A stretch of DNA of 64,000 nt from Opitutales bacterium (GTDB lineage: Bacteria; Verrucomicrobiota; Verrucomicrobiia; Opitutales; Oceanipulchritudinaceae), in assembly GCA_020831525.1 (NCBI GenBank), contig JAFIGH010000012.1:1-64000 (forward strand). The letters are read 5' to 3'. A model generated the notes under the pieces. That model worked only from the letters and a program-made list of their open reading frames with translations, had not been told where the DNA came from and made no database searches. Below are positions 1 to 27,929 of the stretch, piece by piece. How positions within the stretch are numbered: position 1 is the first letter of the stretch; the number at the start of each line of letters is the position of its first letter. The position numbers and the translations under genes were made by a program.

Positions 1-1151
1 TCCATCACCCCGCACGCCAGGAAAGCCCTTTTCCACGAAAATCCACGAAGGACCACATTTCTCAGCTCCTGCAATGTTTGTCCGGCAGTCGTCTCAGCCC
101 ATCTTTCTAGTTCGCTGCACTCATTGACAAAGGAAGCCTTGGATAGCTCGCGGCAACGGTCCCATTTATTTAAAAGAATAGCCACGGGCCGAGGGCGATC
201 AATCTTCTTCAAATTCAACTCGAGAAAAACTTGTTTGATGCGGTGCAACAGCTGTGTGTATGGTAGATCGAAGGCTATCTCGCGGTTGGCATTGGGCTGC
301 GGGGTCTCGACCAAAATCATAAACCCATCCACCTCGTTCAAGATATTGAACAGTTTCTTGCTGTTTGGGATATCCTCAATGGGATCCTCTTCTTCAATCA
401 TCTCTCCGGCGTAATCAACCAGTTCGATATTCGTTTCCGGCTGGCCGTTACAACCGCCTAGAAAGTAAATCATGCGGAGAACCTCCAAGGGGCTCTTCTC
501 CGGCACCCCACCGCTTAACAGAAGTTGGATAGATATTTTAACACGCTGATATCCATCGCGGAATTCCTGAATCAGTCTGGCTTTCCGTTCTGCCGAAATT
601 TTTTTGAGGCCCTCCGCCTCAGGGTCTAGTTTCCGTAGTTGCGTACACGTGAGTCCGTCCGGATGAGGTCGTCGCGACATCCCGAGGGCGGTTAGAAAGC
701 AGGTTTTTCCGGAGCCTTGGCCCCCGATGATGCCAATTCGATGGACTTTTTCCTTGAAAAAAGGCTGAAGGCCTTGGTCAAAATCTTTAAAGATCGCCTT
801 CAAGGCATTGGCATTGCCAACCTTCTTAGGCTCGGTAACAAGTCTATCCGCCAAGTGGCACGAAAGGAGAGTTTCGCCGATTTGAAAATGCACGCCATCG
901 TCAAGGTCAATTTCGGGGGTATTTTCGTACTTACCATCGGTACGATTAATTACCAGATGTTTGGGTGACAACGCCCTGACCGTAAATCCGGAGGCAGCCC
1001 TAGTGATTAGGGCATGTTCACCGGCAACACCGTCTCCTTCGATTTCAATGTCGTGTCCCATCCCCGGGCGGCCAATGGTAATTTGATCGCGGACTCTAAG
1101 CGCCTTTCTTTGGCTTTCGATACGCAGAATCAGGGCGGGGGCGTCCTTCAT
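1..1151 (-). CDS. FHA-domain P-loop GTPase (C-terminus beyond window)
   Basis: The gene enters from the left edge, so only its N-terminal 383 residues are visible. Residues about 20-90 form an FHA-like fold (IGRPGMGHDIEIEGDG, then GEHALI, then HFQIGETLL), which in characterised proteins binds phosphothreonine peptides. A P-loop GGQGSGKT follows near residue 140. A VDYAGEM segment resembles the G3 motif, and LLNKWD is a clear G4 guanine-specificity motif, so this is a TRAFAC-like GTPase rather than a general ATPase. Its ATG overlaps the stop of the upstream ABC transporter gene by 4 bp (ATGA), which suggests translational coupling. Base composition is less GC-rich than the rest of the window. 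It probably relays a phosphorylation signal to the transporter; that is inference. Confidence 0.75.
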   Translation of the reverse strand, partial: MKDAPALILRIESQRKALRVRDQITIGRPGMGHDIEIEGDGVAGEHALITRAASGFTVRALSPKHLVINRTDGKYENTPEIDLDDGVHFQIGETLLSCHLADRLVTEPKKVGNANALKAIFKDFDQGLQPFFKEKVHRIGIIGGQGSGKTCFLTALGMSRRPHPDGLTCTQLRKLDPEAEGLKKISAERKARLIQEFRDGYQRVKISIQLLLSGGVPEKSPLEVLRMIYFLGGCNGQPETNIELVDYAGEMIEEEDPIEDIPNSKKLFNILNEVDGFMILVETPQPNANREIAFDLPYTQLLHRIKQVFLELNLKKIDRPRPVAILLNKWDRCRELSKASFVNECSELERWAETTAGQTLQELRNVVLRGFSWKRAFLACGVM

Positions 1152-3229
1152 GACAATCTTTGACTGGCTGGGTTGGTCTTCGGTAAGAAGAAATGAAAGA
1201 AAAACAGCATTGCCAGCGCGTGGCCAGATAAAAGAGTCAGAAAGTAGATCCACTCTCTGGCAAAGGCACGCCGGTTTGTGTTTACAAATTCTTGAGAACG
1301 GTGTCCAACGGCGTTGTCAGCGTCGATGATCAACTCCCTTCTTTGGATTGCTGCGGATCGGCCCTCCAGAATGTTAAGAAACGGTCTGGAGAGGAGGGGC
1401 AAGGAAATGACAGCTTGAATCCTCTCCTCGCCAGAGGAGGCCGGACCTCCGTATTCGGCTTCAAGGAACCAAAATATCGGGTTATAAGGATTGTCCGATG
1501 AATAAAATCCAGTTGCTTGATAAGTGCTCATATTGAAGAGAAGGTGAGGGATCATCAAGAGAGGCAGAATGGAGACCGCGACATACTCCTTGCGCACAAC
1601 GGCGGATACAACCAACCCGAGGAAACCACCTCCAAGGATCATAAGGAACAATAGGACCGCGAAGGGAAGAACAAGAGCGGGCGTTGGCCAAGGAAATCCC
1701 AGTTGCAAACCATACGGGGCCAGCATGTGAAGGGTAACCAATACCCCAGTTAGCACTACGGTTTGGACGACCGCCCCACCGATGAGAAAGAGAACTTTTC
1801 CAAGTCCGTAGGAGACTGGAGAAAGACCCGTTCGGACGTCTCTAGAGGTAATGGATCGTTCGCTGACGACGGTTCGAATAACTAAAGTCATTCCTAGCCA
1901 AATAGCGGTTATTCCGGAGTAAAGAAAGAGACCTTGGAGCCCCACTCGGATATCCATTGCTTCAACCCTTCCCTCGGCAACGAAAACAAGTGTGCCGATC
2001 AACAGCGGAAGGGCGATGGTTACCCAAAAAGATGCTGGATTACGGGTAACATGCCGGGAAGTTCGTGATGCGATAAGTAAAGCCTGTTTCGAGCAGGAAC
2101 GAATGTCCTGCGGGGTTGGAAGTTTCTCCGTTAGCCGGACATCCGATTCATTCAGTGAAACAATAGAGTCACCTGAGGATGTTCTATTTGTCGGCGTTTG
2201 GGGAGGTCGGGGGAGAAAAATATCCGTGAATCGCTCGAGTTCAAAATCACGGCAAATCTCCTCCAGAGTCCCCCTTTCACCGCCACGATTGGGACCGGCG
2301 TAGCAGAGGGAAGATTCGGTCGATGACGGGGATTTCGAGAGTGGTCTCAAAATAACAATTTGGTCGAAATAGGAGACGGTTTCCAAGGCATGGGTTACGC
2401 AGATGATAGTCACTTCGCTTTCCTTGGAAATTTTTCGCAAATTGTCCATCACGGTCTTCTGACTCTGCGGATCCAGACCGGAAGTAGGTTCATCCAGCAT
2501 AAGGATATCAGGTTCTCCGGCTAATTCCATCGCTACACTAACCCGTTTGCGTTGTCCCCCGGAGAGGTTTCGGATGACTTGGTCGAGATGGAGCGATAGC
2601 CCCAGGATTTCAGCTATATCCCCCGCTTTTTTCTTTGCAGCAGGATAAGATAAGAAAGGTTCCCTGAAGAGTATGGATTGGAAAAGGCATTCCTTCACTT
2701 TCAAATATTGCGGCAAAATATCCTCTTGCGGAATGTAACCTATTGAGCTATCCGGATGGACCAAAACATTGGCGCTTCCTGTGCCCCGGATCTCAAGGAG
2801 TTCCTTGATCAGGGTTGATTTTCCGCATCCGCTTGGCCCTAAAATCCCGGTCATTCCTGTATCATGATCGATCCCGAAGGAGAGATTCTGCAAGATAATG
2901 TTGTTTCCTCGGGAGACACATAAATCACGAATGTATAGGAACCCTCGGGCGGGGGCCAAGAAGAGATTCGGTCTTTCCCATCGACAGCGATACCCGCCAA
3001 ACCAGAGATAGGCTCGGTCGGGAAGCGGACTCTCCTCGAATTCGTTCCGGTTAATACGAATGGAACCTTGGCTTTTGTTCCGCAAAATATATTCATCACG
3101 CGTAAGCTCGATCTCGGCTTCAATTCTTTCACCAGACTCCTTCCGGGGAAGAACAAAATCAGATCCTAGCTCCGTGCTGATTTTCCAACTGGTCTTGCCC
3201 GGTTGGTCGAATGAAAAGAAGACAGGCAT
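1148..3229 (-). CDS. ABCG-type transporter, ATPase fused to membrane domain, with FHA-like N-terminus
   Basis: A 693-residue half-transporter with the ATPase N-terminal to the membrane domain. Residues 1-88 are beta-rich and end like an FHA domain (SQGSIRINR, then YLWFGGYRCRW) but lack the conserved GR...S..H residues. The ATPase has Walker A GPSGCGKST (131-139), Q-loop GYIPQED, signature LSGGQ (222-226), Walker B ILMLDE (242-247) and H-loop His280. From about residue 400 there are about six hydrophobic segments, consistent with an ABC2-type membrane domain. The order FHA-ABC-TM resembles mycobacterial Rv1747, whose FHA domains respond to Ser/Thr kinases. It lies 18 bp downstream of the anchored-protein gene and overlaps the FHA-GTPase gene by 4 bp. 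The transported substrate cannot be told from sequence. Confidence 0.85.
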   Translation of the reverse strand: MPVFFSFDQPGKTSWKISTELGSDFVLPRKESGERIEAEIELTRDEYILRNKSQGSIRINRNEFEESPLPDRAYLWFGGYRCRWERPNLFLAPARGFLYIRDLCVSRGNNIILQNLSFGIDHDTGMTGILGPSGCGKSTLIKELLEIRGTGSANVLVHPDSSIGYIPQEDILPQYLKVKECLFQSILFREPFLSYPAAKKKAGDIAEILGLSLHLDQVIRNLSGGQRKRVSVAMELAGEPDILMLDEPTSGLDPQSQKTVMDNLRKISKESEVTIICVTHALETVSYFDQIVILRPLSKSPSSTESSLCYAGPNRGGERGTLEEICRDFELERFTDIFLPRPPQTPTNRTSSGDSIVSLNESDVRLTEKLPTPQDIRSCSKQALLIASRTSRHVTRNPASFWVTIALPLLIGTLVFVAEGRVEAMDIRVGLQGLFLYSGITAIWLGMTLVIRTVVSERSITSRDVRTGLSPVSYGLGKVLFLIGGAVVQTVVLTGVLVTLHMLAPYGLQLGFPWPTPALVLPFAVLLFLMILGGGFLGLVVSAVVRKEYVAVSILPLLMIPHLLFNMSTYQATGFYSSDNPYNPIFWFLEAEYGGPASSGEERIQAVISLPLLSRPFLNILEGRSAAIQRRELIIDADNAVGHRSQEFVNTNRRAFAREWIYFLTLLSGHALAMLFFFHFFLPKTNPASQRLS

Positions 3230-3247
3230 AGTTCACATGTGGAGGCC

Positions 3248-4558
3248 TCATTCTTCCAAAGCCCTTACTTTATAAATCGTTTCAAAAATTGGGGTAACCT
3301 GATGGCGAGCCTCAAAGATCCAGTGAGCAGCAGAACGATCCGTGAAGGAAGCGTTACCCTTGAGGGTCAAACGGTCCATTCGCTGCGGATTGGAATAAAA
3401 GTGAATTGATCCTTCACTGGGAATAAAGGTTCCAGTGACGGTCCGACCCTTTGGGCGGCCCCGGACTTCAAGAGTGCCGCGTCGGTAGTAGATTTCGCCA
3501 CGTCCACCTGATTCATCGTAGCGACCAAAGGAAAGCATGCCACTCACCGTCGCTTGCCAGGAACGGGGGAAGGGAGCGGACAGGACATTGGCATAGATAT
3601 TATGAATTTCGCCATCTCGCAGAGGCCTATCGGGAAACAGGTGGGCGTCCGTAAACATCCCTGCTTGAAACAGGTAGTGAAGGTCTTCCAGAAAGACAAA
3701 ATTTTCCACATCCTGTGCGGGTTTACGATCGCTAAGGTAACCAACAAAAGTGACCTTTCGAACACCTTCGCCATCCCTGTAGTGAACACGAAAGCGAGTC
3801 TGGTGAAGAGCGTCGATTTCAGGAGGACTGATGAGTTTTAAATCTAACTCTTGAATGATCTCGTTGGCGATAGGACTCTTAAGAAATTCATTTACGGCTG
3901 ATTCGGTCATTCGGCTAGCCCCGGGTGGAATCATGAATCCATCCAAGGCTGAAAGGAGACTGGCGGAGAGGTCAAAGGCATCATGGAAACGTCGGCCAAG
4001 ATCCATTCTAATTCCCGGCTCGGCCCGAAATTCAACGACGGCCGACTCGGTAATATCGACAAGAGCAGTAATTTCTTTTCCATTGTTTTCCTCGATAAAA
4101 ATCTCGGAAACTCCTGACAGAATCATGGTAAAATCAGCAAATCCGGCAAATCCCCAATCCTGATGCGAGGCTCTTCCACTGATCGTGGTCAATCCACTTT
4201 TGCGGTATATTGTGCCTACTTGGAAAATCTCTTTTAGGCGCACGGTGTCACCGATGGCTGGCGGAGGGCGCTCAAAGTCGCCTTCGAAGATGGTTTTCAT
4301 CACCTCGACCGTGACCTCCTGCCCGGGGGTAATCCGTCGCTGTGTCCGGGTTGGTTCCGCTGTTTCCTCATCCGTCATCTTCGCAGAGGCGGAAGGCTCA
4401 GGGTCAGTAGTGGCGGGCGCTGTTTTGCTCCCCTCCGGCCCGGGACGGAAGATCAGAATGGTCAGAAGCCCGATGATAACCAAGGCCGCCAATCCGAAAA
4501 CCAAGGGCAGGTAGGAGTTGCCCCGACAGATGGAATTGTAAGGTTTCAAATTACTCAT
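3248..4558 (-). CDS. Single-pass membrane protein of unknown function, first gene of FHA/ABC operon
   Basis: A 436-residue protein I do not recognise. A short N-terminal cytoplasmic stretch is followed by one strong transmembrane helix (about residues 16-39, YLPLVFGLAALVIIGLLTIL). After a low-complexity Pro/Thr/Glu linker the rest is predicted to face the periplasm. The soluble part alternates charged and hydrophobic residues as in beta-rich domains and has no cysteine-based or catalytic motif I can name. It is the first gene of the three-gene operon with the ABC transporter and the FHA-GTPase, so it may be an accessory or substrate-binding subunit; this rests on context only. The ATG at 4558 has no clear Shine-Dalgarno. 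Confidence 0.7.
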   Translation of the reverse strand: MSNLKPYNSICRGNSYLPLVFGLAALVIIGLLTILIFRPGPEGSKTAPATTDPEPSASAKMTDEETAEPTRTQRRITPGQEVTVEVMKTIFEGDFERPPPAIGDTVRLKEIFQVGTIYRKSGLTTISGRASHQDWGFAGFADFTMILSGVSEIFIEENNGKEITALVDITESAVVEFRAEPGIRMDLGRRFHDAFDLSASLLSALDGFMIPPGASRMTESAVNEFLKSPIANEIIQELDLKLISPPEIDALHQTRFRVHYRDGEGVRKVTFVGYLSDRKPAQDVENFVFLEDLHYLFQAGMFTDAHLFPDRPLRDGEIHNIYANVLSAPFPRSWQATVSGMLSFGRYDESGGRGEIYYRRGTLEVRGRPKGRTVTGTFIPSEGSIHFYSNPQRMDRLTLKGNASFTDRSAAHWIFEARHQVTPIFETIYKVRALEE

Positions 4559-4734
4559 TGGATTGTAAATTATTTGCGGGTCTGGTGTACCGGCTTGCTA
4601 ATGTTTCGTCGGATTTTCGCAAGCCTGAATGTTGAGGGAACACGACACAATGATTTTTCACGTTCTCGCAGGGTGCAAGCGTAAATTATGAATTGTGCCC
4701 ATCCAAAATTCGGAATCTGGATTGTGCCGAGTTC

Positions 4735-4880
4735 GATAGCTCTTGCGGCCCGGAATGCGGGCGGGACGCCCGCGCTCCCGGCGGATCACCGGCTTGTCCG
4801 CGCCACTGCCCTCTCGGTGCCCTCCGGGATGCGGAAAAACCGCACTCGAAGCACAAGGCTGGAAAAAATGCATAGATAAA
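4735..4880. repeat. GC-rich intergenic repeat element with perfect hairpin
   Basis: The core is a perfect 7-bp inverted repeat with a 3-nt loop, GCGGGCGGGACGCCCGC at 4757-4773. One frame over it reads 'NAGGTPALP'. From memory, that spurious peptide recurs in automatic annotations of Verrucomicrobia and related genomes, where this DNA is dispersed as an intergenic repeat. Only one copy is in this window, so its repeat nature is inferred. It might act as a terminator or mRNA-stabilising hairpin at the end of the exoprotein operon. Confidence 0.4.
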
Positions 4881-4943
4881 AGCACACAGAACGGAATGTC
4901 CGGGCCAATCTTTAGGTACAGACAAGTTCCGAGGAGCGCAGCG

Positions 4944-4965
4944 AGACATGTCGCAGACCATGTCT
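4944..4965. repeat. Inverted repeat AGACATG / CATGTCT
   Basis: Perfect 7-bp arms (4944-4950 and 4959-4965) with an 8-nt loop lie about 50 bp beyond the stop of the PEP-CTERM gene that ends at 5014. It could be a weak terminator for the minus-strand operon, but it has no T-tract. Function is unknown. Confidence 0.4.
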
Positions 4966-5013
4966 GTGTCACGTTGAGGTAAAGTCGGTAAGGTTCCGCG
5001 GCGAAGCCCGGGA

Positions 5014-5712
5014 TTACTTTCCCGATAATGCGCGTCGGCACAGGAAGACGCCCACGGCGAGAAGCACGGGGAGGAGCGCCCAGAGGCGGGGTTCGGGAAT
5101 GACGACGAGGTCACCGGTAATGACGAGGGCGTGCGGGGTTCCGTCGATGTCGAGGGCGGGGTCGTTGGCGAGGCCGAGGACGCCCGCGGCGGAGAGCGCC
5201 CCATAGCCGTAGAGGCGGAACTCGACGGTGCCGGACAAGGGTTCGAGGTTGGAGAGGTCGATGAAGTTGACGTCGTTGGGCCCGGGGAAGGCGCTGATAC
5301 TTGTGTCGAGAAAGAGGCTCGACTGAAAACCGTCGCCGCTGTGGCGGAGGTCGAGGCGGCGGGCGGAATCGGCGGAACCGGCGTCTTGGTAGGCGATGCG
5401 CAGGCTGTCCGGCACCCAGAGGTATCCGGGATCGACCTCAAAAGAAAAGGACAGCCGACTGCCGCTCTCCACACCGGGAAAGACGGAAGACTGCGACCAG
5501 TTGGACGAATCGAAATAGCCGGCGAAGTCGTCCACAGGCGCAAGGTCAGCGCCGCGCGTGACGGTCGCTCCGGTCAGGCGCGGATCGCTGCTCTGGCCCG
5601 CGAGCGCGCCGTCGGTGGCCTCGGCGACGTAGGCGACGACGACGGCCCCCGGAAGCGATGCCGCGGCGAACGCCGGAAGAAATGCCAAAAGGAAGCGCGG
5701 TTTCATATTCAT
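5014..5712 (-). CDS. PEP-CTERM sorting-domain protein, last gene of exoprotein operon
   Basis: A 232-residue exported protein. An N-terminal signal peptide (FLLAFLPAFAAASLPGAVV) is followed by a beta-rich region of about 170 residues with no recognised domain. The C-terminus has the PEP-CTERM layout: an IPEP motif at about residue 205, a hydrophobic helix (LWALLPVLLAVGVFLC) and a basic tail (RRALSGK). In bacteria with exosortase EpsH/XrtA such proteins are cleaved at PEP and delivered to the cell surface, often with exopolysaccharide. No exosortase is encoded here. The gene lies 21 bp downstream of the InlB-repeat gene and is probably co-transcribed with it. A second ATG two codons later is equally possible as the start. 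Confidence 0.85.
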   Translation of the reverse strand: MNMKPRFLLAFLPAFAAASLPGAVVVAYVAEATDGALAGQSSDPRLTGATVTRGADLAPVDDFAGYFDSSNWSQSSVFPGVESGSRLSFSFEVDPGYLWVPDSLRIAYQDAGSADSARRLDLRHSGDGFQSSLFLDTSISAFPGPNDVNFIDLSNLEPLSGTVEFRLYGYGALSAAGVLGLANDPALDIDGTPHALVITGDLVVIPEPRLWALLPVLLAVGVFLCRRALSGK

Positions 5713-12506: not shown

Positions 12507-12512
12507 CTCCTT
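12507..12512 (-). promoter_or_regulatory. Shine-Dalgarno overlapping the giant gene's stop codon
   Basis: The minus strand reads TGAAGGAGATCTTTCGTATG. The first base of AAGGAG is the last base of the TGA that ends the 5,072-residue protein, and the next ATG follows nine bases later. Ribosomes finishing the giant protein would be placed to start the TolB-like protein, so the two are probably coupled. Confidence 0.75.
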
Positions 12513-15500
12513 CACGGATTGCCGGCAGCGGGGGTTTGCGAGAGAACCGGCGACGACGGCAGATTCCATCCGCCGCACTGGTCCTGCACAAGGATTCCGC
12601 CCGCATACATGGAATTGGCGCGGTCGAGTTCGAGGTTGTAGACGGTGAACGCCCCCTCCTCGCGCCGGATCGTTTCGATGCGGTAGACGGCGCGGTCGCG
12701 CCCGTGCAGGCGGTCGCCCGGCGCGAGGTCGAGAGCGGGCAGCCAGCCCGCGTGATCCGTCCAGACGCGGTGCGGACCGGTGATCGAAACGGAGCGGCGG
12801 CGGTCGGGGTCGCGCACGGACACCATGTCGATATGGAGGAGGTGGTCCGAGCGGATCTCAATGTGTTCCAGCACGCGGGCGCGTTCCCGCGGGCCGTCGC
12901 CCGTGCGCACCCACATGCCTTCGGAAAGGTCGGCGATGGGTACGAACGACCCATCCGCCGTCTCCACGGGAGTGTCCCCCGGAAAACACCCGAAACCACC
13001 GCCGGAGTAATTCACGCCGGGACCCGGCGATTGCGACGACCGACCGCCCGTCGCTGGCGATGTGAACGCCGCCGACGCGCAACCGACAATCATTCCAATG
13101 AGAATCGCCGGATTGGCGGTAGCCGCCGAGAACAGCTCCGCCCCTGCGATGAGGGAGGCGCCGACCGGTCGACTGATCCCGCTCGCGCTGTAGACATCCG
13201 AGTTGGCAACGGCGTTGAGGATTGTGGCAAGGTCACCCGCCGAACCCGGCACGAGAACATCCCTCAGGCACTGCTTCACGCGGCCGCCGGGAGAACCAAG
13301 GCCTGCCGGGTCGATGCCGCCGCTCCCCGGTAAGCCGTGTATCGTAAAGCGCATAGGCACTTCCACGACCTCCTGCGGCGCCAGTTCTGGAATGAAAGTG
13401 ATCAGCGGGATGAGCGAGGCATGGCCGATCGACATGCCCCGAATATCGACATTACGCATGGCGATGAGCCCCTCGTTGCGGAACGTCGAGAGGATCGTAG
13501 TCTCGAAGCCGGGTTCGACATCATCGAAGAACACCGAAGGCGGATCAATGACGAGCACAGGAAACGGCACCCGCGTCTCGAAGGTCTGCTCGATTACAAT
13601 ATCGTAGCGGTCCGTGAAGGGGCGCGGCACGACCGTGAAATTCACCGTAACAAGCGCGCGGTCCAGCGTGACCTCGACCGGTGTCACTTCGTCGGCCTGG
13701 ACGGTCACGATGCCGGAGCGGGGCGAGTGCCCCGACGCGCCCGCCTGCCAGAACCACTCACCCTCCTGCAGGCCCTCGAAGAGAACGCGCCCCTCCGCGT
13801 CGGTCGTCCGGGGGCCGACCTCCGCGCGCAGGTCGTTGTTGCGCATCCGTATCGACGCATTGGGCACGGGATCAAGGAGAAGATTGTCGACAATGAACTC
13901 GACATCCCCGGAAAGCGCGGACGTCACCCGGGCAAAGAGCCCGAACTCGAAATCCGATTCCGCGTTCTCCCCCTTGATGACGAGGAAATCGTTGAAAAAG
14001 CCGAGGTCGGTGTCCTCCGGCGGGGTAAATACGACCGAAAACGTGAGGTTTCCGCCGACAGGCACATCCGGCAAATGGATGCGGTCCTCGCTGTCGCGCG
14101 GGAGATTCACATCAAACCACGGCACCTCGGCGGGCGGGATCAGCTCGACACCCTCGAGCGCGCGCAGGCCGAGATTTGTCAGTGTGACGTCGCGGCTCAC
14201 GAGACCGTCGCGGTCCACGCTCACGTTGACAAATCCGTCGGCAGGGCTCGTGACGGACAGAATGGGTACGGCCGGGCGCAGGCTCACCTGAGCGAGAAAC
14301 TCCGCCTCGGCCCCTTCCGCCGTGGTCAATTTCATCGACAACAGCGCCTCGTCAGGTGCGTTGATTGTCGATGTAAGCCGGAACCGGAGATTGCGTTGTG
14401 CGCGGGCACCGAGGGTCTCCGGCGGCGTCTGCGCGAAATCCACGGACAAGGTATCGACGGGGATCTCGTTGTCGTCGCCGTCGATGATGAAGGCCATGCT
14501 CTCGAGGGCAATCCCCGTGATTGCGAGGTCGCCTGGATTGACCACCCTCAGTGTAAAATCGAGCGTATCGGCCCGCGACATAACGATATCACCCAGCGCG
14601 GGGTTGAAGAAGAGACGGTAGTATTCGATCTCGGTCTGGTCGAGCCGATCGACAACATCGGGATGGCTCGCCCAAAAGCGCATGCGCCCGGAGAACCCGC
14701 TCGGGGGCAGGTATTCAAAAACGTAGTTCCCGTCTTCGTCGGTCTCGACAGACACGGACCATGTGTGCGCTCCGCTGGCGATACCGATGCGCAGCGGCAC
14801 CTCGGGCACCGGATCGCCCGTTTCGCGGTCGACGGCCTGACCCGTGATAACAACCGGTTCCGTGTTCGTGTAGACGTCCTTTGATGCCGCGGACGTGCCG
14901 AAATACGGAGCCTCCACGAGGGACGATTCCACCTGCCCCGTCAGCGGACCGGCCACCTGCTGGTGCGGTTGCCCGATGGCGTTGTAGACAACCTCCGCCG
15001 TGGCCGTGAAGGCCGCCTCACCGCCTTCGCCGAGTGCCTCCGGCACGAGAATGTTCCGGACCGTGAACGAGGCCGAGGCACCCGGAGACACAGAGAGCAC
15101 GCCGTCGCCGTTGGGCCGCACAGCAAGACCGGAGATGGCACCGGTGGCGTAGTGGCGCGCAACCTCGGCCCCGCTCACGTCCAAAACAGAAATAAAGAAA
15201 TCACCCGGCTCGGCGCCGTTGGCCCGGGTGATGACAATGTCGAGAGACGACAGTCCGAGATTGTGGACCGTCACGCCGAAGTCCGTCAGCCCGCCCGCCA
15301 GAGGTACTTCGCGCGGGGCAAGGGTGATCATGTCGGTGCGCTCCACGGCATCGCCGACTTCCGCCGTGGTCTCGTAGAGCACGCGCGAACCGCCCGCCGC
15401 TTCGTGAACCGCCCGCACGCGGAGGTTCTGCGGTTGGTCGGGAACAAGCGCGGTCGGCAACACAAGGGCGGTCTCGGCGATTCCGCCCGGCGGCGCGGTG

Positions 15501-18500
15501 AGATTGACGGCACGCGTGTGCGAAACCACGTCACCCGCCGCCGGAAAGCGGTCTAGCTGGAAGGCACTGATATCGAGCGCACGGGTCGGGTCGATATTCG
15601 CGAGGGCAACATCGTACCGGTCGAAATAATATATCACGGGATCGACTACATCGCCCGCTGCGTCTACGTTAACGAGCAGCGTCCACTCCACCGGATGAAC
15701 CGCGACGACCCGCGGGGCGCTCTGCTGGCCGTCGGCATTGACGGCACGCACGGTGTATTCAAAAGCTGCTGTCTCCGGCGCGGCGGAGTCCTGGAAGAGC
15801 GGCGCGGAGAGCGGTGCCGGGGTAAGGAGCGTACCGTTGCGGTAGACATTGAACCCGGTCGCCGACGGATCATCCGACTCCCATGTGAGCCGTGCAGTGC
15901 CGCCCGTTTCGATGATCGCCTCGAGACCGGTGACAGCATCGACGAACATCTCGATTTCCGCAGGCGCGGAAAGCGCTTCGTTGCCGACGGCGTCGACAGA
16001 AGCCACTTCATATACCAGCAGTCCGCGCGGGGGCGAGTCGACAATGCCCGCCGAGGTCTGCACGGTGCGGATGCGTGTGCCGTTGCGGTAGACATGATAG
16101 AGAGCGGGCACTTCGCCCTCCGGCGCCTGCCATGTGACGGAAACCCCGGCGTCGCCAAGGACCGCCGACACATTGACGGGCGGCGGGGGCGGCGTGCGGT
16201 CGGACAAACCTTCGAGGATTCCCGACGGAAGACCTTCCGCGCCCCGGCGCGAAGCGGTGACGACATAGCTCCAGAGCCCGTCTTCCGGCGGAAGATCCGT
16301 AAACGCGGTGCCCGTCAGGCCGCCGACAAGGAGCGTCTCCGGCGGCTCCGCCGTGAATCCGGCGGTCCGGTAAATGTTATAGACCTCCGCCTTTTCGACG
16401 GGCTGCCAGCTGACGGCGATTTCTCCGCCTTTAAGCGTAGTCGCGGTGAGGCCCGCAGGGCGCCCCGGCGGTGGCGGAAATTCCGTCGTGAAGAGTTCGA
16501 GGTCCGCGCCGGCGGTGATGCTTGTGCCGAGATTGCCTGCGGCATCGACAGTTTCGAGCAGGAACGATCCAATACCGTCGCCCTGCGACGGCCCGAGCGT
16601 GAGCGTGCCCGTCCAGTTGGGGCCCTGGCCGGTGAGCGCGATCTGGAGCACATCGCCCTGCGGCGGCGAGAAACGAAGCGATGGCGGCGAGCCCGCGGGC
16701 GCCGGCTTGCTCAGCGTGAGGCCGACCTCAAGGGCGACCGGCTGCGCCGTGCGCACGGGCGGCGGTTCACCGACATTGACAATGCCCGTCGGACGCGTGA
16801 CGTCGAAGACAAGATTCGGTCCTTGCGGCGCACCGTTGAAGACGTTGCCCGCAAGATCGCGCGCGGAGACGAGCACCTGTGCCTGACCGGTCCGCGCGGA
16901 AAGGTCGGTTACCGCATACGTCGCCGTGTAGGTCAGACCACCCGCCGCGGTGAGAGGCACCGAGACCGGTGCCTGCATTCCGGCCGGGCGAATGGTGAGC
17001 GAAGGGGTGAGCGCAAGCGGTTCGCTCGCCGTCAGGGTGATCCCCAGATCGCCCGGCCCGACCGGAGCGGTACGGTCGTAGGCAATGGTAAAGGCGGGTG
17101 CCGTGCCGTCGTACTCGACAATCACGACATTGGAGAGGTCGCTTTCGTTACCCGCCTGGTCAAGGCCGACCACGGCGATCCAATACGTCCCGTCAGCGAG
17201 ACCGCGCAGGATCTCGGAGAGGTGAGTCACCGTCTCGCTGCGGTTGGCCGCGGCGGCGGCCGACGCGAACGGCGCGGTGTCCCAAACAACGGCAAAGGCA
17301 ACGGCACGCTCCCCTTCCTCCGCGTAGCGCCACTGCAGCGAGAGTCCGGCTCCCGGCCGGTAGACCGGCTCCTCCAGCACCACCGGCGCGGGCGGTCCCG
17401 TGTCGAGAAACACATCGACCGGTGCCGACACCGTGGAACCGAGCGAATCCACCGCCGCGGCGACAAGCGTGTTGCGTCCTTCCTCCAAGGCAACTTCGAC
17501 GAAGGAGAAGGTGCCGTCCGGTGCCGCCGCCACTGTGCCTTGCAGCGCGTTGTTGCGGGTCAGGCGCACGGTGACGCCGGGCTCAGCCGTGCCGGAAACC
17601 GGGACTGTGGGCACATTCAAGAACGTATCGGCGACGGGCGAAGTGATGACCGGGGCGGGCGGCGGTGTCGGGGCAACCACGACATTGACCTCGCGGGACG
17701 CCTCGTTGCCGGCCGCGTCCGTGGCAAGCGCGCGGACACGGTAGATGCCGCCCGGAAGACCGCGCGGATCCCAACGGCCCGCGAGCCATCCGGTGGTTGA
17801 GCTGAGCACATCCGCCTCGTTCACCTGAAAGCGGAGGCTCGTAAGTCCGAGGACAGCGGACGCCTCCGCCGCAACGTCGACCGGGCGGCTGATTTCGATC
17901 CCCTCGGCGAGGTTGAAGGAATCGATCACCGGACCCTCTGTGATCAACTCGATCTCCACTTGCACAGGATCGCCCAGCATCCCCGTGAGGGAACGGAATT
18001 GCACAAAGACCGTCTTCACACCGCCGGTCGCGGAAAGCCGGAACGGAAAATCGGCGGAACCGACAAGGAACACTCCGTCGGTCCATGGGTCGCGGGGGAA
18101 TTCGTTGAAGACCGCGCCCGTGAAGATCGAATTCTCGCTTACGCGGAAAGACTCGGCGTTGAGAGAAGCGAGCCGCAGCGTGATGTTGCGCGAGCCCGTC
18201 GTTTCCGCTCCGCCCACCACGGCAACACCCGCGCTCAGGAGCGGTTCGGAGTCCAGCGGCCCGCCGCCGTTGACCGCACCGGACCAGCCGTCGGCGATGG
18301 CACTAGAATCGGAGGTCCCCCACCAGTTGCCGCTGAAGTCGTTGACCGCCCCGCCCTCAATGTCGACCTGCGTGGCGTTGTTCTTGATTACCGATCCGGT
18401 GATCTCCGCCTCACCCGACGAGTGTACCCGGACGCCAAGCACGTTCTCCGCGATAAACAGGCCCGTGCTCTCCACACGTGCGCCCGGCCCGACGGCAAGG

Positions 18501-21500
18501 CCGGCGACGGCGTTGTTCACCAGCGCAACCGTGCCGAGGGCGGGTGTCGCGCCCTCGACAACAAGACCTTCGCCGAAACGAACGGCCGTGTGTTCCAGCA
18601 CCGAGGCGCGCGCGGGATCGGCGAGGACCACGTGCCCCCAGTCACCGGCGAGCGGTGTCGTCCCCCCGCCCTCGGCGGCAGAGGTCAGCAGCACGGGATC
18701 GAGCGCGGTGCCCTGCGCGAGGAGGCGCCCTTCTTCAATTGTGAGCGATGTGCCCGGAGCAAATAGGAGCGTCGTGCCCGCAAGGATCGTGAGGTCCGCG
18801 CCCTCCGCCACGACAAGGCTTTCGAGAACCTCGACAACACCGGGCCCGAGCGTGAGTGAATCGGTGATCACCTCGGAGAGCGGATCCCGCCACGGCACGG
18901 AAACGACGGTGGCGTCGAAGGCGTCGAGCCGGTTGAAGGCGACCACGGCGAAATGCCTCGTCGATCCCCGCTCCAGCCCCTCGACAAGCAAGGTTTGCTC
19001 GCCCGGCGACAGCTCCGTTAGCACGGAGGACGCCGATACATCGGAGAACGGTTCCTCCGCCCAGTAGACGCGGTAGCCCGCGAGACCGCGGTAGTTGCCT
19101 TCCGGATAGGAAGACCAGTCGAGAAAGGCGGCGTCGGGCGCCGAAGCCGACACCGTAAGCGCCACCGGGTCCGGCAGATCACTCGCCATGGTAAAGGCAA
19201 AGGGCGTTACGCTCCCGAGAGCGTTGCCCGCTTGGTCGAGCCCCACGACCGCCGCCCAGTACGGAGTGTCGAGTTCGAGATCGGCCAGTGTGACGTCACG
19301 GCGGGTGCGCGACCGCGCGCCCACCGAATCCAGTCCCTCAAGCGCACTGAAAGGCTCCGCTTCAAGATAGACACGGAAGGATTGCAGGTCGGGCGGCGCA
19401 TCGTAGTCCGTCCACGACAAAATGGCTGTCGTCTCCGTGTAGTCCGCGAGGGTGAGGTCGACTGCGGGTGGAGGTTCGGTGTTGATGGTGAAGGTGAAGA
19501 CCTCTGCCGTCTCCATGACGCGGCCCTGCGTATCAGCGGCGTCCTTCACTTCGAGCCGGTAGAGACCGTCATCACCCGCCTCGATCACCGCCGGCGGAAA
19601 GCGGAAACGCGTCGCGCCGATCCATTCCCCGCCGGGGGGTATCGCGGCAAGGCTTTCCGCATCATCACTGAGCAATGTGCCCGCCGGCGAAACACCGCCG
19701 TCCATCGGGCGGTCGAAAGTGATCGTGATGACGTAGTCCGGGACCGACGACACGGGCGAGCGCCGGCTCGCCGAGGCCGCCGTGACGACGGGCAGGAAAC
19801 TCCGCGCCTGGTAGCGGGCGATAAAGTTCATTTCCGGCGGATCCGCCGTGGTGAGCAAACGGCTGATCTCCGGACTGGTGCTGAAGTTCGCGCCGTTGAG
19901 CCGGAAACGCTGGAAGACATACTCCGTTTCGCCCGCAACCACGGAGGGCGGAGCGCTGAGCGTGAGGGTCACGTTGTTGCCGTAAGTGCCCGCCCCGTCA
20001 ATGACAGCGATTCCCGCGGGGTCCGTCCCGACCGTGACCACGTGCTCCGGATTCGCTTCCGCGAAGACTGCCGTGAGCGCGCGCGGTCCCGTCAGTGTGA
20101 AAACGTAAGGGTTGTCTTCCGAGACGACCACGCCGTCCTCGCGCCAGGCTTCGAAGAGATAACCCATCGCCGGGTTTGCCTGAAGGGTCACGGTATCACC
20201 GTGCGGGTACACACCGCCGCCGCTGATTGTGCCGCCCCCGGCCACACTCGACGCCGTCGATACGGGATAATTCGGAAGGCCGAACTCCGCGACAAGGGAG
20301 CGGTCGCGCGTCACCGTGAACGAAAGCTCCGCCTTCGCACTGACGAAGCCCCCGCCTTCGGTCCAGCGGACGAAAAAATAGGGAAGCGCGCCGGTCTCGG
20401 GAGTGGCCGCGACCGTCGCGGTGGCGCCGAGGGCGAAAACGCCCCCGCCGGTGACAGAGCCACCGGCGGCAGGCGCTCCCGCAACGTCAACAGTGAAAAA
20501 GCTGTCTATGCTGAAGGTCGTTTCAAAGGTATTGCGCTCGGCGGCGAGGTGGCCGCTTTCGTTGAACTCGAAGACCTCGCCCAGCGCGTCGGCGATCACG
20601 CGGACGCGATAAACCCCGCCCTGCGCCGTCGTGATGACAGCCGACTGCGGAAGGGTCTCGTCCGGTGCGAGCGCAACTTCGACGGGTATCAGCTGGTTCG
20701 CGACGGCCTGCCCGCTGTCGACGCGGTTGACGACGAGCCGCTGGCTGTGTCCGGCTGGGGCGGTACCGAGCCACCGGTTCGCAAGGTTCCATGAAACCTG
20801 CCACTGCGACGTCCCTTCCACCGGCGCGGCAACGAGGTTTTCCACAACAAGATCCGGATAGACCCGCAAAGTCACTTCCAGCGGGTCCTCGGAAAAACCT
20901 GTGTTGTCACCGGAAAAGATAAACTCGTCCACAACGTTGCCGAAGTCCGTGTGGATCCCCACGTAGAAGGCACCCGCGAGGCCGTCGGGAACGCGGCCCG
21001 TGCCCTCGACAGTGTAGGACGCGCCCGCCGCCAGCCCGGTCCCGCGCGGCACATCAGCAAGGACAAAGACGGCCTCCGCCGCGAACGCCGGTCCGGACGC
21101 CAGCACCACCCGGTCGATCCATCCACCGGCGGGGATATCCGTGTTGCCGATATTCGCCACCGTGAACGTGAAGCCAAGGTCACCGCCTGAGAGCAGTGGG
21201 TCCGGCGCGGTAAACGCCACCTCAGTGACCACAAGATTCGCGAAGTCGGCGAAGTCCGACGGAGCGACAACCACATCCAGCGCATACGCGCTCGTCGGCC
21301 CCGCCGACGTGCCCGAAGCGCGTACCAGCGCGAAATAGTTCCCGGTGGCGGTCACCGTCACCTCGGCGGCGGCCCCTGCGGCGCTCCCGCTGTCGCGCGG
21401 CACGAGCGAACCGTCCTCACGGAAAAGGTCCACGACGGGCAGAAGCGGGCTGCCCTCCGGAAGCTGTGTGGAGAGGAAAACGGTGCGGCCCGCCTCGATC

Positions 21501-24500
21501 ACCCCGAGGTCGAAGTAGTCGAGATCGGCGGTTGTCCGGACACAGCCCGTTGCCGAGGCCGTGAAGACATCGTCACCGGACGATTCGAACGTGAGAGGCG
21601 TGGCCGTTTCGATGGTGCCGTTGGGTTCGGCTTCGAATTGTAGTGGAGGATGGGTACGGAGAACGGTGAACCGGTAGTCGCCGTTAAAGCTGTCCCACGG
21701 TTCCACACGCAGGATATAATCCCCCGTCTCCGGTAATACGAGGGCCTGCGGATCAAACGCGCCGCCCGTTCCGGAGTTGACAAAAAACAGCTCGCTGCCC
21801 GAGGGCGCGAGCAGCCGCCCCCGGTGGCGGCTGAAAGTCGGCGCACCCGGATTCACTCCGTCGATGAGAACATGGTCGCCCGCCTCACCGTCAAAGATCC
21901 AATAGTCGGTCTCGTCGCTTTCGACGAGATACCCGATGCCGCCGCCCGCGTAGAAGCCGGCGACATTCTCCGCCCACTGCACACGTGTGGCTGTTTCGGC
22001 TGAATCTCCCGGCCAATCTTCGACAGTGTAGAACGGGCGTTCAATGACCGTGAATTCGCGGGTGAAACTCGCCCCGAGGGGCAGGCCCCAGCGGTCGGTC
22101 AGCCCCGTGAAGACGGTCAGGCTGTAAAGTCCCTCCGGCAGGGGCGCCTCCGCAAACACATACTGCGCCTCCGGTCCGCCTGTATAGGGTTGCGGCACGA
22201 CCGCGAACAATGTGTCGCCGGGGCCGAAACCTACACCGTCGGCCGAGCGGCGGAGAAGGTACTGGCCGCCGTCGGCAATCGTATCCGGGTCCATATCGCC
22301 GCTGAATGTCAGGCTGAATCCGCGCAGGAGGGCGGTTGTCGGCGCATCTGGCAGTGACGAATCCACGACAAGCGGCGGCGCGGACGACGTGACGCTGATG
22401 TCAATGATGTAAGCTGCTTCGAGGCCGCGGAACGCGGCGTCGTCGAAGACGCGAAGGTAGACGGCGTCGCTGAATCCGCCGGGCGATGTCCAGACAAGCG
22501 GTCCGCCCGTGGCGGAGGCAAGGACCGCCCCGGAGGCGTCGCGCAATTCCATGCGGGGGCGCAGCGGACTCGTCGCCGTGTCCACCGGAAGCAACTCCAC
22601 CGTGGTCCCCGCACTGAGGTTTGCGATGAAGAAATAGTCGCCGGCAGTGTCTTCGCGGACGACCACGCCGCCGATACGCGCTTCATTGGCGGGCCGGTTG
22701 TCGCCGAAGACGACGACGTTGGCATTGGCGATATTGTTATTCGATTCCTCCTCCACTTGGATGCCCGGCGCAAAGAGCAATACGCCGAGGCGATAGGGAT
22801 CGCGGTTATTGTCCCGATCTTCCACCCGCAGGTAGTAGACTCCCGGATGCGGCAGCGGGGTCGTCGGTCCCTGTGTCTGGTCACTGCCGGTGGAATCATT
22901 GTGCAGCATCAATTGGTTGCCGCGGGAGTCGTAGAGGCGCACGCGCTTGCGATTGAAAGTGGGGCTGCTGAGCGTTTCGAACGTCGTCACCAACGTCGAC
23001 CCCGCCTCCGCCGTGAAGGCCCAATAGTCGAGGTCATCGGCGTCGGCCATGACACCCGCCGCCTGCGCCGTCGCAAGGTACGGGTTGGCCGCGTCAGCCT
23101 CGAGATCGTTGCGGGGCAGGCCGGGGAAGGTGTAGATCCGGTCGTTGGTGTAACCGGCGATGACGAGGGTCGGAAACGCGTCGCCGAAGGTCACGACATC
23201 GCCGGCGTAGGCCGTCCCGGCCACCGGATTATCTTGCGGCGGGGCAAACGCGATGGAGCCCGGCGCGGAACGGTTGTAGTGGATCGTCAGTCCGGCCGAG
23301 GCACTGCCCCCGGCGAGGAGATCGGGCCGTCCGTCGCCGCTGACATCCGCAACCGTCACCATATAGGCCGAAGTATTGCGCCCGAGAGGCACTTCGAGCG
23401 GAGCGCCCCACCCTTCCGGAGTGCCCGCGAAAACGGAAACCCGGTTCCCCGACTGGTAGGCAAGGATGAGGTCGTCGAAGCCGTCGCCATCGAGATCGGC
23501 GGCGTTGAGAAAATAGGGATTCGTGTCCGGCTCGAAGGACCATTCCTCGGAGAACGCCCCGCCGCCGAGGCCCCGGTAGTGGATGAGCGCCTGCGGAGAG
23601 ACACCGGAAACGACAAGATCATCAATGCCGTCGCCGTCAAAATCGCGCAGTAGGACGCCGCGCGGGCGCGTATCTGTCGCAAAAGGTGTCACGGTGAATC
23701 CGCCCTCTCCATCGTTGAAGAGGAACCACACCTGCTGTGCGGTCGTCTCCGCCGCCACGGCGAGGTCGGGCAAGCCGTTCTGGTTGAGGTCGCCCACGGC
23801 GATCTGCCGCTGGTTCGTCTCCGCCGGGTAGTCGACACGGTCGAAGAGGTTTCCGGGATCGCCCGTGTTCCAATAGATCGATACATAGGAGGCACTGAAG
23901 TGCGACACCGCAAGGTCGAGGCGCCCGTTGCCGTTGAGATCCACGGCCACAACGTCGTAGGGGCTGGAACCGGTCGACCATTGCAGCGGCTCGTCGAAAG
24001 TTCCGTCCGCCTGACCGGGATAAAGGAGGAGGGTGCTGCCGCTGTAGGTCACCACGGCGAGATCGGGATACCCGTTGCCGATAAGATCGCCGGTGGCCAT
24101 CCGCCACGGCCTGCCGGGCGCGTCGTAGGTCGGCCCGTTGCGGGCGTAACTGCCGCTGAACTCCGGAAGAATCTCCGGCCCGAGAGGATCGGCGGCAGCA
24201 AAAGAACTGTTGTCGCGGCTTTCCAACAGCACGCCCGGAAAGCCCTCTACAAAGAACGTGCGCTCGTAGACCGCTTCAAGGGTATTCCCCGCCGTGTCGG
24301 CGAGGGAATCCAGTCCGCGGAAACGGTAGTGGCCCGGTTGGAGCGGCCCGTCGACCACACGCAGTTGCACGGAGGTGCCCGCCGTGTAGGGTGCCACCGG
24401 TTGCACGGAGTACACTTCGTCATCCGCCGTATCCCATGCCCCGTCCGGTCCGGCGGCGCGCAGGTCGTAGGATGCGGCGGCATTGACTGTCGCCGGGTCC

Positions 24501-27500
24501 ATGTCCTCGGTGAAGGTCAGGGAAAAGCGGTCGTAGACGCCGACGAAGGTCGAGCCTTCCGCGGGCAACGTGTCCGCCACAATCTCCGGCGGCACGACGT
24601 TGGCGAGGCGAATCGTCAGCCGGTATTGGGAAAGCAGATCCAGTGTTCCGTCGTGGGCGCGCACACGCACGGCGTAAGCACCCGTCGCCCCGTCCGGCAC
24701 GGTGTATTCGAGGAGCGCCTGCCCCGGCTCGCCCTCCACCACCGGACCGACCGGCGGATGGATCTCAAGGAAGGGCGTCAGCGGAGAGGCCTCCGGGACA
24801 GCCAGCTCCAGCGTCAGCTCCGTCCCCGGACCCGGACTGCCGATGCGGAAGTAGTCGCCCGACGTGTCGCCCGGCGGCAGCGAGCCGAAGATGCGAGCCA
24901 CAGCCACCCCCGCCTCGTCGGCAAACTGCGCTTCATTGCCGGTGGCGGCACTGTTGTTGTTCTCCACTTCCAACTGGATCGGCTCGCGCACTACAGAAAC
25001 ACGGATACGGTACTCGCCGAAGTAACTGTCATGGCTGACGACGCGCAGCGCGAAAACGCCGCTCTCCGCCGCGATGAACTGTGACTGCAGGACGCCGCCC
25101 GATGTCGGTGCGAGTCCGTTGAAAAACTGGCTCCCGGAGGGATCAAGCAGTTGTACGCGGTTACGCGAAAAGGTGGCCGTAGACTGGCTTTGGTAGAGCA
25201 CCTGCACACGGTCGCCCGCCTCCGCCGCAAAGCTCCAGTAGTCCACATCGTCCGGATCGGCGCGGTAGCCGCGCCCCGCCCCCGCGAAGAGGGTCGGCAC
25301 CACCGGATCGGCGGCCAGTTCCGGACCTTCCGGGCCGAGGGGAGTTGCCGTGGCGAGCGTGTTGTTGTCCGGTGTTTCCAGCGTGTAGGGCTCGACGCCG
25401 ATGATCGTGAACTCCCGCGTGAAGGGTGCCTCAAGGGCGTTGCCGAAGCGGTCGCGGAGCACAGTATCCGCCGTGAAGCGGTAGGTGTCCGGCGGCAAGG
25501 GGCCGTCCGGAAGGAAAAGCGCGACGCTGGTCCCGTCAGTGTATGCGGAGACAACGGAAACGGTAAAGAGCGTGTCCGCGCCGGTGCCCCACGCCCCGTC
25601 GCCGCCCTGCCCGCGCATCTCAAAGGCCGCCGCATCGTTCACCGAATCCGGCAGCATGTCCTCGTCGAAGGACACTGTAAAGCGGTTGGGGAGCGCGTCA
25701 CTCGTTCCCTCGGGCAGGGTGACGCCCGTGACCAGCGGCGGCGTCCCGTCCTCGAGGTCGACGCGGAGACGGTACTCGGCGAGCAGGCCGGCGCTGCCGT
25801 CCACTGCTTCCACCCGCGCGAAATACGGTGGCACAGAAGTTTCGCCGAGGGTGTGCTCCAGCTCGTCGAGCCCGTCCGCCCCGGAAACAACAAGCGTGCC
25901 ATCACCGTTGTAGAGTCGCAGGCGCGGCACAAGTCCGCTGTGCGCGGGGTTCACGAGTTCGAGCCGGACGGTCGTCTCCGGCCCGAGGTTGGGCAGGCGG
26001 AAGTAATCGCCGTTGCTGTCGCCGATGCCGATGTTGCCCCATACGTCAGCCGTTTGCACCGCGCCGGTGAAAGGAAAGGAGAGCGTGTTCGCCTGATTGA
26101 CGGTGTTGTTGTTCTCCGACTCCAGTTGCGCGCCCGGCGGGAACGCGCTCACGCGGAACCGGTATTCGCCCGACCACGTCGAATCGTGCAGTTCGATGCG
26201 GACAAAGTAATTGCCCGCCGGAAGGTCGAAGTTGCTCTGCGACTGGTCTCCGCTGGTACTCGTGAGAAAGGTGGAAATCTGCGACTGTGCGTCGTCGTAG
26301 AGACGCACACGCACACGCGAAAACGTCACATGAGGACTCATCGTCTGGAGGGCGAGAATGATCCGCGCCGGTTCGTCGAGTGTGAACCGCCAAAAGTCCA
26401 GTTCATCGGTGGAGCGCATGAGACCGCGGCCGTGGGCGAACCGCAGGTCGGAGCCGAAGACGGCGTCCTCCGACAGTCCGATGGAGACCGCCGTAGCAAA
26501 GGAGTCGTTGCCGAAGGGCTCGACGATGAATGTGCCGAGCGATTCGACCGAGAATCCGCGCGAGAACGCCGCGACAAGAGCGTTGCCGAGGCGGTCGGAA
26601 ACACTGTCGTTCACAGTGAAGGCGTAGTCTCCGGCGAGAAGCGGTCCTTCCGCGATATTCAGCCGGACTGTCTCCGGATTGAGAAAAGAGGGCTCCAGCG
26701 TGAAGACCACGTCATCACCGGTACCAAAAACCCCGTCCTCCCCCGCACCCGTGAGACTGTAATTGGCGGCGTCCAGCGCCGTCGCGGGATCCATCGCTTT
26801 GTCGAATGCAACCGTGATGCGGCCCACGAGGCCTGTTGTCGCCAGCCCCTCCTCCGGCAGGTCCACCGAAACGACCTCCGGCGCGGTAGCGTCGGTTACC
26901 GAAACGGCCAGAAAATAATCCGCCTGCAAACTTGCCGCCGCCGAGGACACCACGAGGAAATGCCGTCCAGCCTCCACGACGGTGTGCGTCAGCCCGCCCG
27001 CGCTCTCGGCCACTATCTCGGATGCGCCCTCGCGCCGCAACGCCACACCGAAATCCTCCGCCGCAAGCGGTGAACCGGACCCCGGCACGAGCGTGACAGC
27101 GACCTCCGCGCCCGCGGAAAGGATGCCGAGGTCGAAAAAGTCGATGTCCCCGGACGGAGCCACCACGCCCGCCGCATGATGCGTGGCCGCCCCGCCCGAG
27201 CCCGCGAGGCCGAGCAGCGTCGCCGTTGCTTCCGTGCCGTTTGCCTCGATTTCCGGCTGCACGCCGCGGAACCGCTGCGCGAGGACACGGAAGGCGGAAG
27301 CGCTGCCCGTGAAGTGGACCGACAGTGTGTAGCTGCCGGGGGTGTCGAGCGTGACGGCTTGGATGCGCGTCAACCCCGACGGCAGCCCCGACCCGCTTCC
27401 CGAGACAAACACCGAGCCCGAAGGATTGAGCACCCGCACGTTGGGCGAACCGCTCGCACCGAGCCGCTCCAAGTAGAAAGTGTAGGTATCGCCCGGAGCC

Positions 27501-27730: not shown

Positions 27731-27929
27731 GGACCAGATGTAATTTGAAATACCACCGGCTTCTGCCTTGAGACGTAAGGCTTGTGCTCCAGCCAAAATA
27801 GCGGACTTTGAGGATTTACGCCATACGCAAATGCGCGTAGGGAATTCACCTCACGCGTGTTCATCCGGCTGCTCCGGAATCGAGCCAAACCCACGCCAAA
27901 ACCGAATGGTGCCCGCTTTCGTCGCGCTT

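Follow-up and report, generated by a model that had tools for sequence, protein, structure and literature searches.

A likely acquired gene trio in an Opitutales bacterium as a possible copy of a rare export module centred on an ABCG half transporter

Two kinds of described system come closest to the locus reported here. The FHA-bearing ABCG transporter Rv1747 shares an operon with the kinase PknF, its positive modulator, and has been implicated in the export of a cell-wall component, according to the accessible part of PMC3908365; a phosphothreonine protein that binds the Rv1747 FHA domain has been proposed to switch it off, and PIM glycolipids have been named as candidate substrates, according to the accessible part of PMC5549992. 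The second kind is the predicted GTPase-centred systems of Kaur et al. (2020), the only openly accessible literature in which we found GAP1-N2 together with DO-GTPase2. As far as the accessible text of that paper goes, GAP1-N2 systems are tied there to an FNIII-repeat protein, and the terms "ABC transporter" and "ABC ATPase" have no occurrences in its main text (PMC7159879). A further likeness is to the PpkA–Fha switch of type VI secretion, where FHA and a Ser/Thr kinase control an envelope machine (accessible part of PMC3953482).

Our locus carries a trio of genes, for a membrane-anchored partner protein that we call P3 as a working name, an ABCG-type half transporter and an FHA-GTPase, and is one of 12 loci with P3. 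Like the DO-GTPase/GAP1-N2 systems, several of these loci show a P-loop GTPase with a glutamate in Walker B, a GAP1-N2-like protein downstream at five loci and a kinase theme; unlike them, they give scores under the Pfam cut-offs, and P3 is not mentioned in the accessible text of PMC7159879. Among the literature matches listed, we found no openly accessible description of a P3–ABCG–switch combination, and as far as those matches show, the pieces are of known kinds and their combination is new. The openly accessible literature yielded nothing on Kiritimatiellota with an FHA domain. Like Rv1747–PknF, the loci have an N-terminal FHA domain on the transporter (6 of 12) and a Ser/Thr kinase nearby (5 of 12); unlike that pair, our own transporter is without a recognisable FHA domain, and P3 and the GTPase are additional, Rv1747 having neither to our knowledge.

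The window, the whole stretch of 64,000 nucleotides that was analysed, belongs to a contig of 64,032 nt (G000:C21) whose end is window base 1. The trio lies at this end and is transcribed in the order P3, transporter, FHA-GTPase (Table 1). A preliminary description had read it as three genes that overlap or come close to touching, and the ORFs, all on the minus strand, bear this out: 18 nt separate P3 from the transporter, and the transporter stop and the GTPase ATG at 1151 overlap by four bases (ATGA). We use ATG 1151 in place of GTG 1253, which is unlikely as the GTPase start. Promoter and terminator scans gave results at or below chance. The trio had also been set apart by its base composition, correctly so: GC is 0.510 in P3, 0.495 in the transporter and 0.502 in the GTPase (GC3 0.515, 0.512 and 0.549), in both measures below each of the 22 further ORFs of ≥250 aa in the window (GC mean 0.650, sd 0.022, minimum 0.601; GC3 mean 0.755, sd 0.051, minimum 0.612), and the shift is located at ~4600–5000. 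Just upstream of the low-GC island, a small protein is encoded at 5014–5712 (−), and its C-terminal segment resembles a PEP-CTERM sorting signal. The window also holds a very long ORF of 5094 aa (12512–27796, −).

Table 1. Coordinates of the trio and its parts in the window
Feature	Position	Strand	Basis
P3	3248–4558	−	ORF; N-terminal membrane segment and ~330-aa beta-rich domain
P3 membrane segment	4454–4510	−	Hydrophobicity
ABCG-type half transporter	1148–3229	−	ORF; Pfam ABC_tran and ABC2_membrane
FHA-GTPase, 3' end missing	<1–1151 (own sequence ~55–1151)	−	ORF running off contig end; ATGA overlap
FHA-like stretch of GTPase	1014–1100	−	Pfam FHA below cut-off; sequence motif
GTPase P-loop GGQGSGKT	702–725	−	Sequence motif
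GTPase DYAGE (G3/Walker B with Glu)	402–416	−	Sequence motif
GTPase NKWD (G4)	159–170	−	Sequence motif
Repeat common to five contig ends, cutting the GTPase ORF	1–54	−	Sequence identity
Spacer, upstream border of low-GC island	4559–5013	.	GC climbs from ~0.45–0.50 to >0.60

P3 of our locus matched nothing in Pfam, NCBIfam or PADLOC at the limits used; among three relatives scanned against NCBIfam, L050 and L068 had no match and L116 a single sub-threshold one. Searching with the single sequence found P3 in 6 of 194 genomes, and a profile of nine sequences found it in 11 of 387 genomes of the phylum, our own genome included in both; since nine of the 11 genomes are within the profile, only G270 (2.7e-32) and G401 (3.3e-24) are independent profile finds. 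Plasmids gave no P3 match. The 12 distinct loci are our own, L043–L050, L068, L116 (in genome G270) and L117, with L069, L083 and L070, whose contigs equal those of G174, G258 and G394 in length, counted once. An ABCG gene follows P3 directly at all 12. P3 is cut by a contig end at L045 and L049, and the L049 protein reaches E 0.073 in the single-sequence search but sits in the correct position and can be aligned.

Approached from the transporter, the membrane half matched in 36 of 387 phylum genomes, which include 10 of the 11 P3 genomes (G401 also has a match, by another search). The membrane part found 48 loci in the genome collection, and P3 was recognised by profile at five of them (L068, L069, L070, L083 and L116). 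No P3 was found with the transporter relatives of Streptomyces and Akkermansia using a simple ORF caller that often takes the wrong strand in high-GC DNA. Proteins of ~1190–1240 aa that match the transporter profile are encoded at L110–L115 (Akkermansia and Akkermansiaceae), and no P3 was found in the neighbourhoods analysed for these loci. Judged by its sequence, P3 represents an as yet unnamed protein family that marks such loci. A structure model of P3 (pLDDT 57, pTM 0.50) matched ApoB (Z 11.1), lipovitellin (Z 9.9) and outer-membrane barrels of like Z; given the low confidence and low Foldseek TM-scores, we claim no fold for it. The modelled beta-rich shape and its weak likeness to barrels and lipid-transfer proteins would fit an envelope-export role, short of proof.

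Directly behind the transporter, nine of the 12 loci have a GTPase-family or GTPase-like third gene, and none was seen at L045, L047 and L048. Together with the constant P3–ABCG pairing, these counts give good support to the co-occurrence of the trio's families elsewhere, as the idea of a trio had presupposed. At L046 and L050 the third gene encodes a fusion of a Ser/Thr kinase with a DO-GTPase-like domain (Pfam: kinase domains 2.9e-15 and 1e-25, respectively; DO-GTPase1 5e-5, DO-GTPase2 2.3e-5), at L049 and L116 a DO-GTPase-like protein, and at L117 a DO-GTPase-like protein that extends across frame breaks (6.6e-29, local profile). The L048 protein has a kinase domain (2.4e-46) together with Sel1 repeats and an FHA match that stays below threshold (0.012). 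At L043, L044 and L068, an FHA-like start precedes a GTPase-like region whose P-loop is lost, an assignment made from position and alignment, with Pfam detecting neither FHA nor GTPase in these three proteins. Several third proteins carry one hydrophobic segment.

Beyond these third-position enzymes, kinases are encoded upstream of P3 at L047 (1.5e-33; no GTPase seen) and at L117 (4.2e-24), there with an unrelated ABC ATPase ORF in between. In the L046 kinase, Asn stands at the expected position of the catalytic Asp. Ser/Thr kinases with C-terminal Sel1 repeats recur, at L117 (5391–6959, +) and L048 (5930–8458, −). Several loci are cut on one side, namely L045 (which starts at a contig edge), L049, L116 and our own. 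Control by a Ser/Thr kinase, as proposed for the trio, finds support in the family and none at our own locus, where no kinase gene adjoins the trio on the side within the contig and the other side lies past the contig end. By local profile, the sole kinase-like ORF of the window (58804–61815, −; 1003 aa) is ~54 kb away and joins a sub-threshold kinase match (30 bits vs 31.7) to PEGA and an FGE-sulfatase domain; it possibly encodes a signalling protein.

Our transporter carries ABC_tran (8.1e-20) and ABC2_membrane (8.6e-12) in one chain, with intact GPSGCGKST, LSGGQ and LDEPT motifs followed by six hydrophobic segments. Its N-terminal domain of ~95 aa lies at the FHA position of the relatives, and Pfam finds no FHA there, either in the whole protein or in window 2890–3229; of its earlier label as an FHA-like ABCG transporter, the ABCG half stands and the FHA half is not supported. 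Among the relatives, Pfam places the transporter FHA above cut-off at L045, L046, L047, L048, L050 and L116 and does not find it at L043, L044, L049, L068 and L117 (the scans of L048, L044 and L043 were run on their twins L070, L069 and L083). The canonical FHA motif combines Gly-Arg with Ser-x-x-His, and we recognised both by eye in the transporters of L045, L047, L048 and L050. Excluding L045, the upstream side of which is missing, this canonical pattern occurs at three of five loci with a kinase vs none of six without a seen kinase (one-sided p 0.06). The association is suggestive only, with counter-cases in L117 (a degenerate FHA beside a kinase that looks active) and L116 (an FHA and no kinase seen). 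In our GTPase, the FHA match reaches E 0.0038 and 18.1 bits vs a Pfam cut-off of 20.7; Gly-Arg and the His are kept, and Ala-Gly-Glu-His replaces the canonical Ser-x-x-His. The proposal of phosphothreonine readers on both proteins is therefore not supported at our locus, the transporter having no recognisable FHA and that of the GTPase being sub-threshold with Ala for Ser.

The GTPase itself matches a profile of the L046, L049, L050 and L116 GTPases at E 1.6e-5 (Z=10000), and the next background score among 1222 sequences, beyond the profile members and a six-frame copy of our own ORF, is at least 0.76. Against a profile of the P-loop-less group, the nearest relatives of our locus by transporter tree, it reaches E 0.4, with one unrelated protein scoring better, and the two GTPase groups showed no match to each other when their profiles were compared. 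Pfam DO-GTPase2 scores 20.4 bits vs a cut-off of 27, in the P-loop region only. A P-loop motif and a Walker B glutamate (DYAGE) are both present, and in our own reading of the sequence this Glu would correspond to the conserved Walker B Glu described in the accessible part of PMC7159879. As bait, the GTPase matched our own genome and no other, whether among 89 relatives or in the 387 genomes of the phylum; plasmids gave no match, and the genome collection none that could be confirmed. A structure model of the GTPase was discarded (mean pLDDT 34).

We favour, at a probability of roughly 0.55, the reading that the trio is a horizontally acquired representative of a rare and as yet unnamed export module, with P3 and an ABCG half transporter as its constant core. 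From the sequences, its third position is held by interchangeable switches: a kinase-GTPase, a GTPase, an FHA-kinase, or an FHA with a P-loop-less GTPase-like domain. On our reading, the module takes an intermediate place, with FHA-ABCG transporters of the Rv1747/PknF type on one side and the predicted DO-GTPase/GAP1 systems on the other. The unbroken P3–ABCG adjacency and the P-loop, DYAGE and NKWD motifs kept by our GTPase argue for it, with Rv1747 and PknF as precedent; against it stand the incompleteness of this GTPase, its E of 0.4 to the nearest group, the three loci at which no GTPase was seen, the imperfect pairing of FHA and kinase and the uncertain fold of P3. ABCG-type half transporters work as dimers. 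By analogy, we infer the substrate, direction, gating and complex formation of the module as follows: the transporter would dimerise and, as a dimer, export a lipid-like or other envelope substrate; P3, anchored at the outward-facing side of the inner membrane, would receive or position this substrate; and the third protein would sit at the membrane and gate the pump via its GTP-bound state and, at loci that combine a kinase with a canonical FHA, through phosphothreonine binding as well. A bolder and tentative proposal is that such loci form an undescribed class of P3–ABCG pumps gated by evolutionarily exchanging plug-in switches (a Ser/Thr kinase with an FHA reader, a P-loop GTPase with a GAP1-like partner, or a P-loop-less GTPase remnant), with lipid-cleaving partners in one branch.

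Because its phospho-reading parts look eroded and its switch gene is incomplete, the local copy of the module may be impaired. The best-surviving alternative, which we hold to be less probable than the acquired module and which is compatible with it, takes this further: the local copy would be a decaying, functionless acquired island, its GTPase broken by a repeat insertion and its transporter FHA lost. A repeat of at least 54 bp, identical at the ends of contigs C182, C29, C22 and C110, makes up the terminal ~54 nt of the GTPase ORF, giving five contig ends in the genome with flanks unrelated to one another; with this repeat at the contig end, the GTPase gene is left incomplete, the final ~18 codons of the ORF coming from the repeat and not from the gene itself. 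The unrecognisable transporter FHA and the long branch of our transporter point the same way. Decay fits poorly with the open P3 and transporter ORFs, with every nucleotide-binding motif present in the transporter, and with GTPase motifs kept up to the repeat, where the break may be only one of assembly or may be real in the cell. A diverged copy of the repeat lies between genes in a genome of the same genus (G001, L122 ~1500–1560), with no transposase ORF recognised around it, and plasmid and viral sequences gave no match to the repeat. A second multicopy gene, which resembles a transposase, has its 3' end at many contig ends of our genome (20 matches in one search; contigs C173, C39, C153, C88, C93, C81, C136, C49, C32 and others, L137–L153), and its C-terminal part matches nothing in Pfam or NCBIfam. 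As the carrier of the 54-bp repeat it was dropped, the matches being weak (E 0.1–0.2), and none of the flanks viewed near it fits as a continuation of the GTPase. A C-terminus profile of the three P-loop-less relatives found nothing in our genome, an empty result that carries no weight.

It is rather unlikely that the locus is an ordinary Rv1747-type FHA-ABCG exporter of envelope lipids, with P3 as an accessory and the GTPase as an operon bystander. Its ABCG architecture, the FHA above cut-off in six relatives' transporters and the kinase at five loci, with Rv1747/PknF as precedent, would all suit such an exporter; a mere bystander is hard to square with a GTPase-family or GTPase-like gene directly behind the transporter at nine of 12 loci, fused to a kinase at two, and with the ATGA overlap of transporter and GTPase at our own locus.

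We are equally doubtful that these loci branch off from the GTPase-centred, defence-like conflict systems that Kaur et al. (2020) predicted, in which a DO-GTPase switch with GAP1-N2 would sense an invader and deploy effectors; the transporter and hydrolases would then be the parts that act at the membrane. A GAP1-N2-like protein is encoded next at five of the 12 loci (L046, L049, L050, L116 and L117), with a hydrophobic segment where tested (L046, L049 and L050). In Pfam scans of L116, L046 and L050, GAP1-N2 scores 18.1 bits at L116 (cut-off 24) and 13.8 at L046, with none at L050; a local profile from L046, L049, L050 and L116 finds the L117 protein at 5e-46. Then comes a small protein with a lipoprotein-like start by eye, with one ORF between in L046. 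Further downstream lie patatins at L116 (7.7e-21) and L117 (8.7e-27), M48 peptidases at L116 and L049 and, at L049, also an alpha/beta-hydrolase match (sub-threshold) and a trypsin-PDZ protein. Such patatin, peptidase and hydrolase genes adjoining at three loci, the patchy occurrence, the DO-GTPase1/2 families as the closest Pfam relatives of the GTPase domains and the YxGE motif with Glu in our own, L046, L049, L050 and L116 proteins all point towards a conflict system. Every DO-GTPase and GAP1-N2 score, however, is below its Pfam cut-off, and the accessible text of Kaur et al. names no ABC transporter (PMC7159879); a GAP1-like gene was seen neither at our own locus, where the contig ends inside the GTPase, nor elsewhere among the other seven, and PADLOC gave no match for our GTPase or P3 and generic ATPase matches only for the transporter. 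The general Pfam scan of the relatives' loci listed no FNIII among its matches.

The acquisition of the trio, suggested in the preliminary description from composition, is well supported and likely to have been horizontal, a conclusion drawn from composition, absence from the family, the transporter tree and the GC of relatives. Of 372 genomes of the order, two carry P3 (our own and that of G067), and none of the family's 16 other sampled members does. In a tree of 18 transporters, ours joins the Kiritimatiellota copies of B12222, B1221 and the ERR2094169 bin (support 99/98), on a long branch of 1.78, and the copy of G067, from the same order, falls in a separate, well-supported group (100/100); all P3-linked transporters group weakly (41/70). 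The neighbourhood GC of the three Kiritimatiellota relatives is 0.46–0.52, matching the 0.50 of the trio. It is very improbable that the trio is native and just GC-poor: a few low-GC ORFs on other contigs of the genome (L118 110–1495 at 0.443, L119 13375–14538 at 0.497) mean that low GC is not confined to the trio site, but not one of the 22 ORFs compared within the window approaches the trio's composition, and the lack of P3 in the sampled family and the placement with Kiritimatiellota speak against it.

FHA-ABCG transporters are known mainly via Rv1747, and the DO-GTPase/GAP1 systems, as far as the accessible literature goes, have so far been predicted with no target known. If one gene set brings the two together around a pump, the GTPase systems would gain a tangible machine on which to act, and the loci would offer a natural series for switch replacement, from a kinase with a canonical FHA through a kinase-GTPase fusion and a GTPase alone to a GTPase-like domain whose P-loop is lost.
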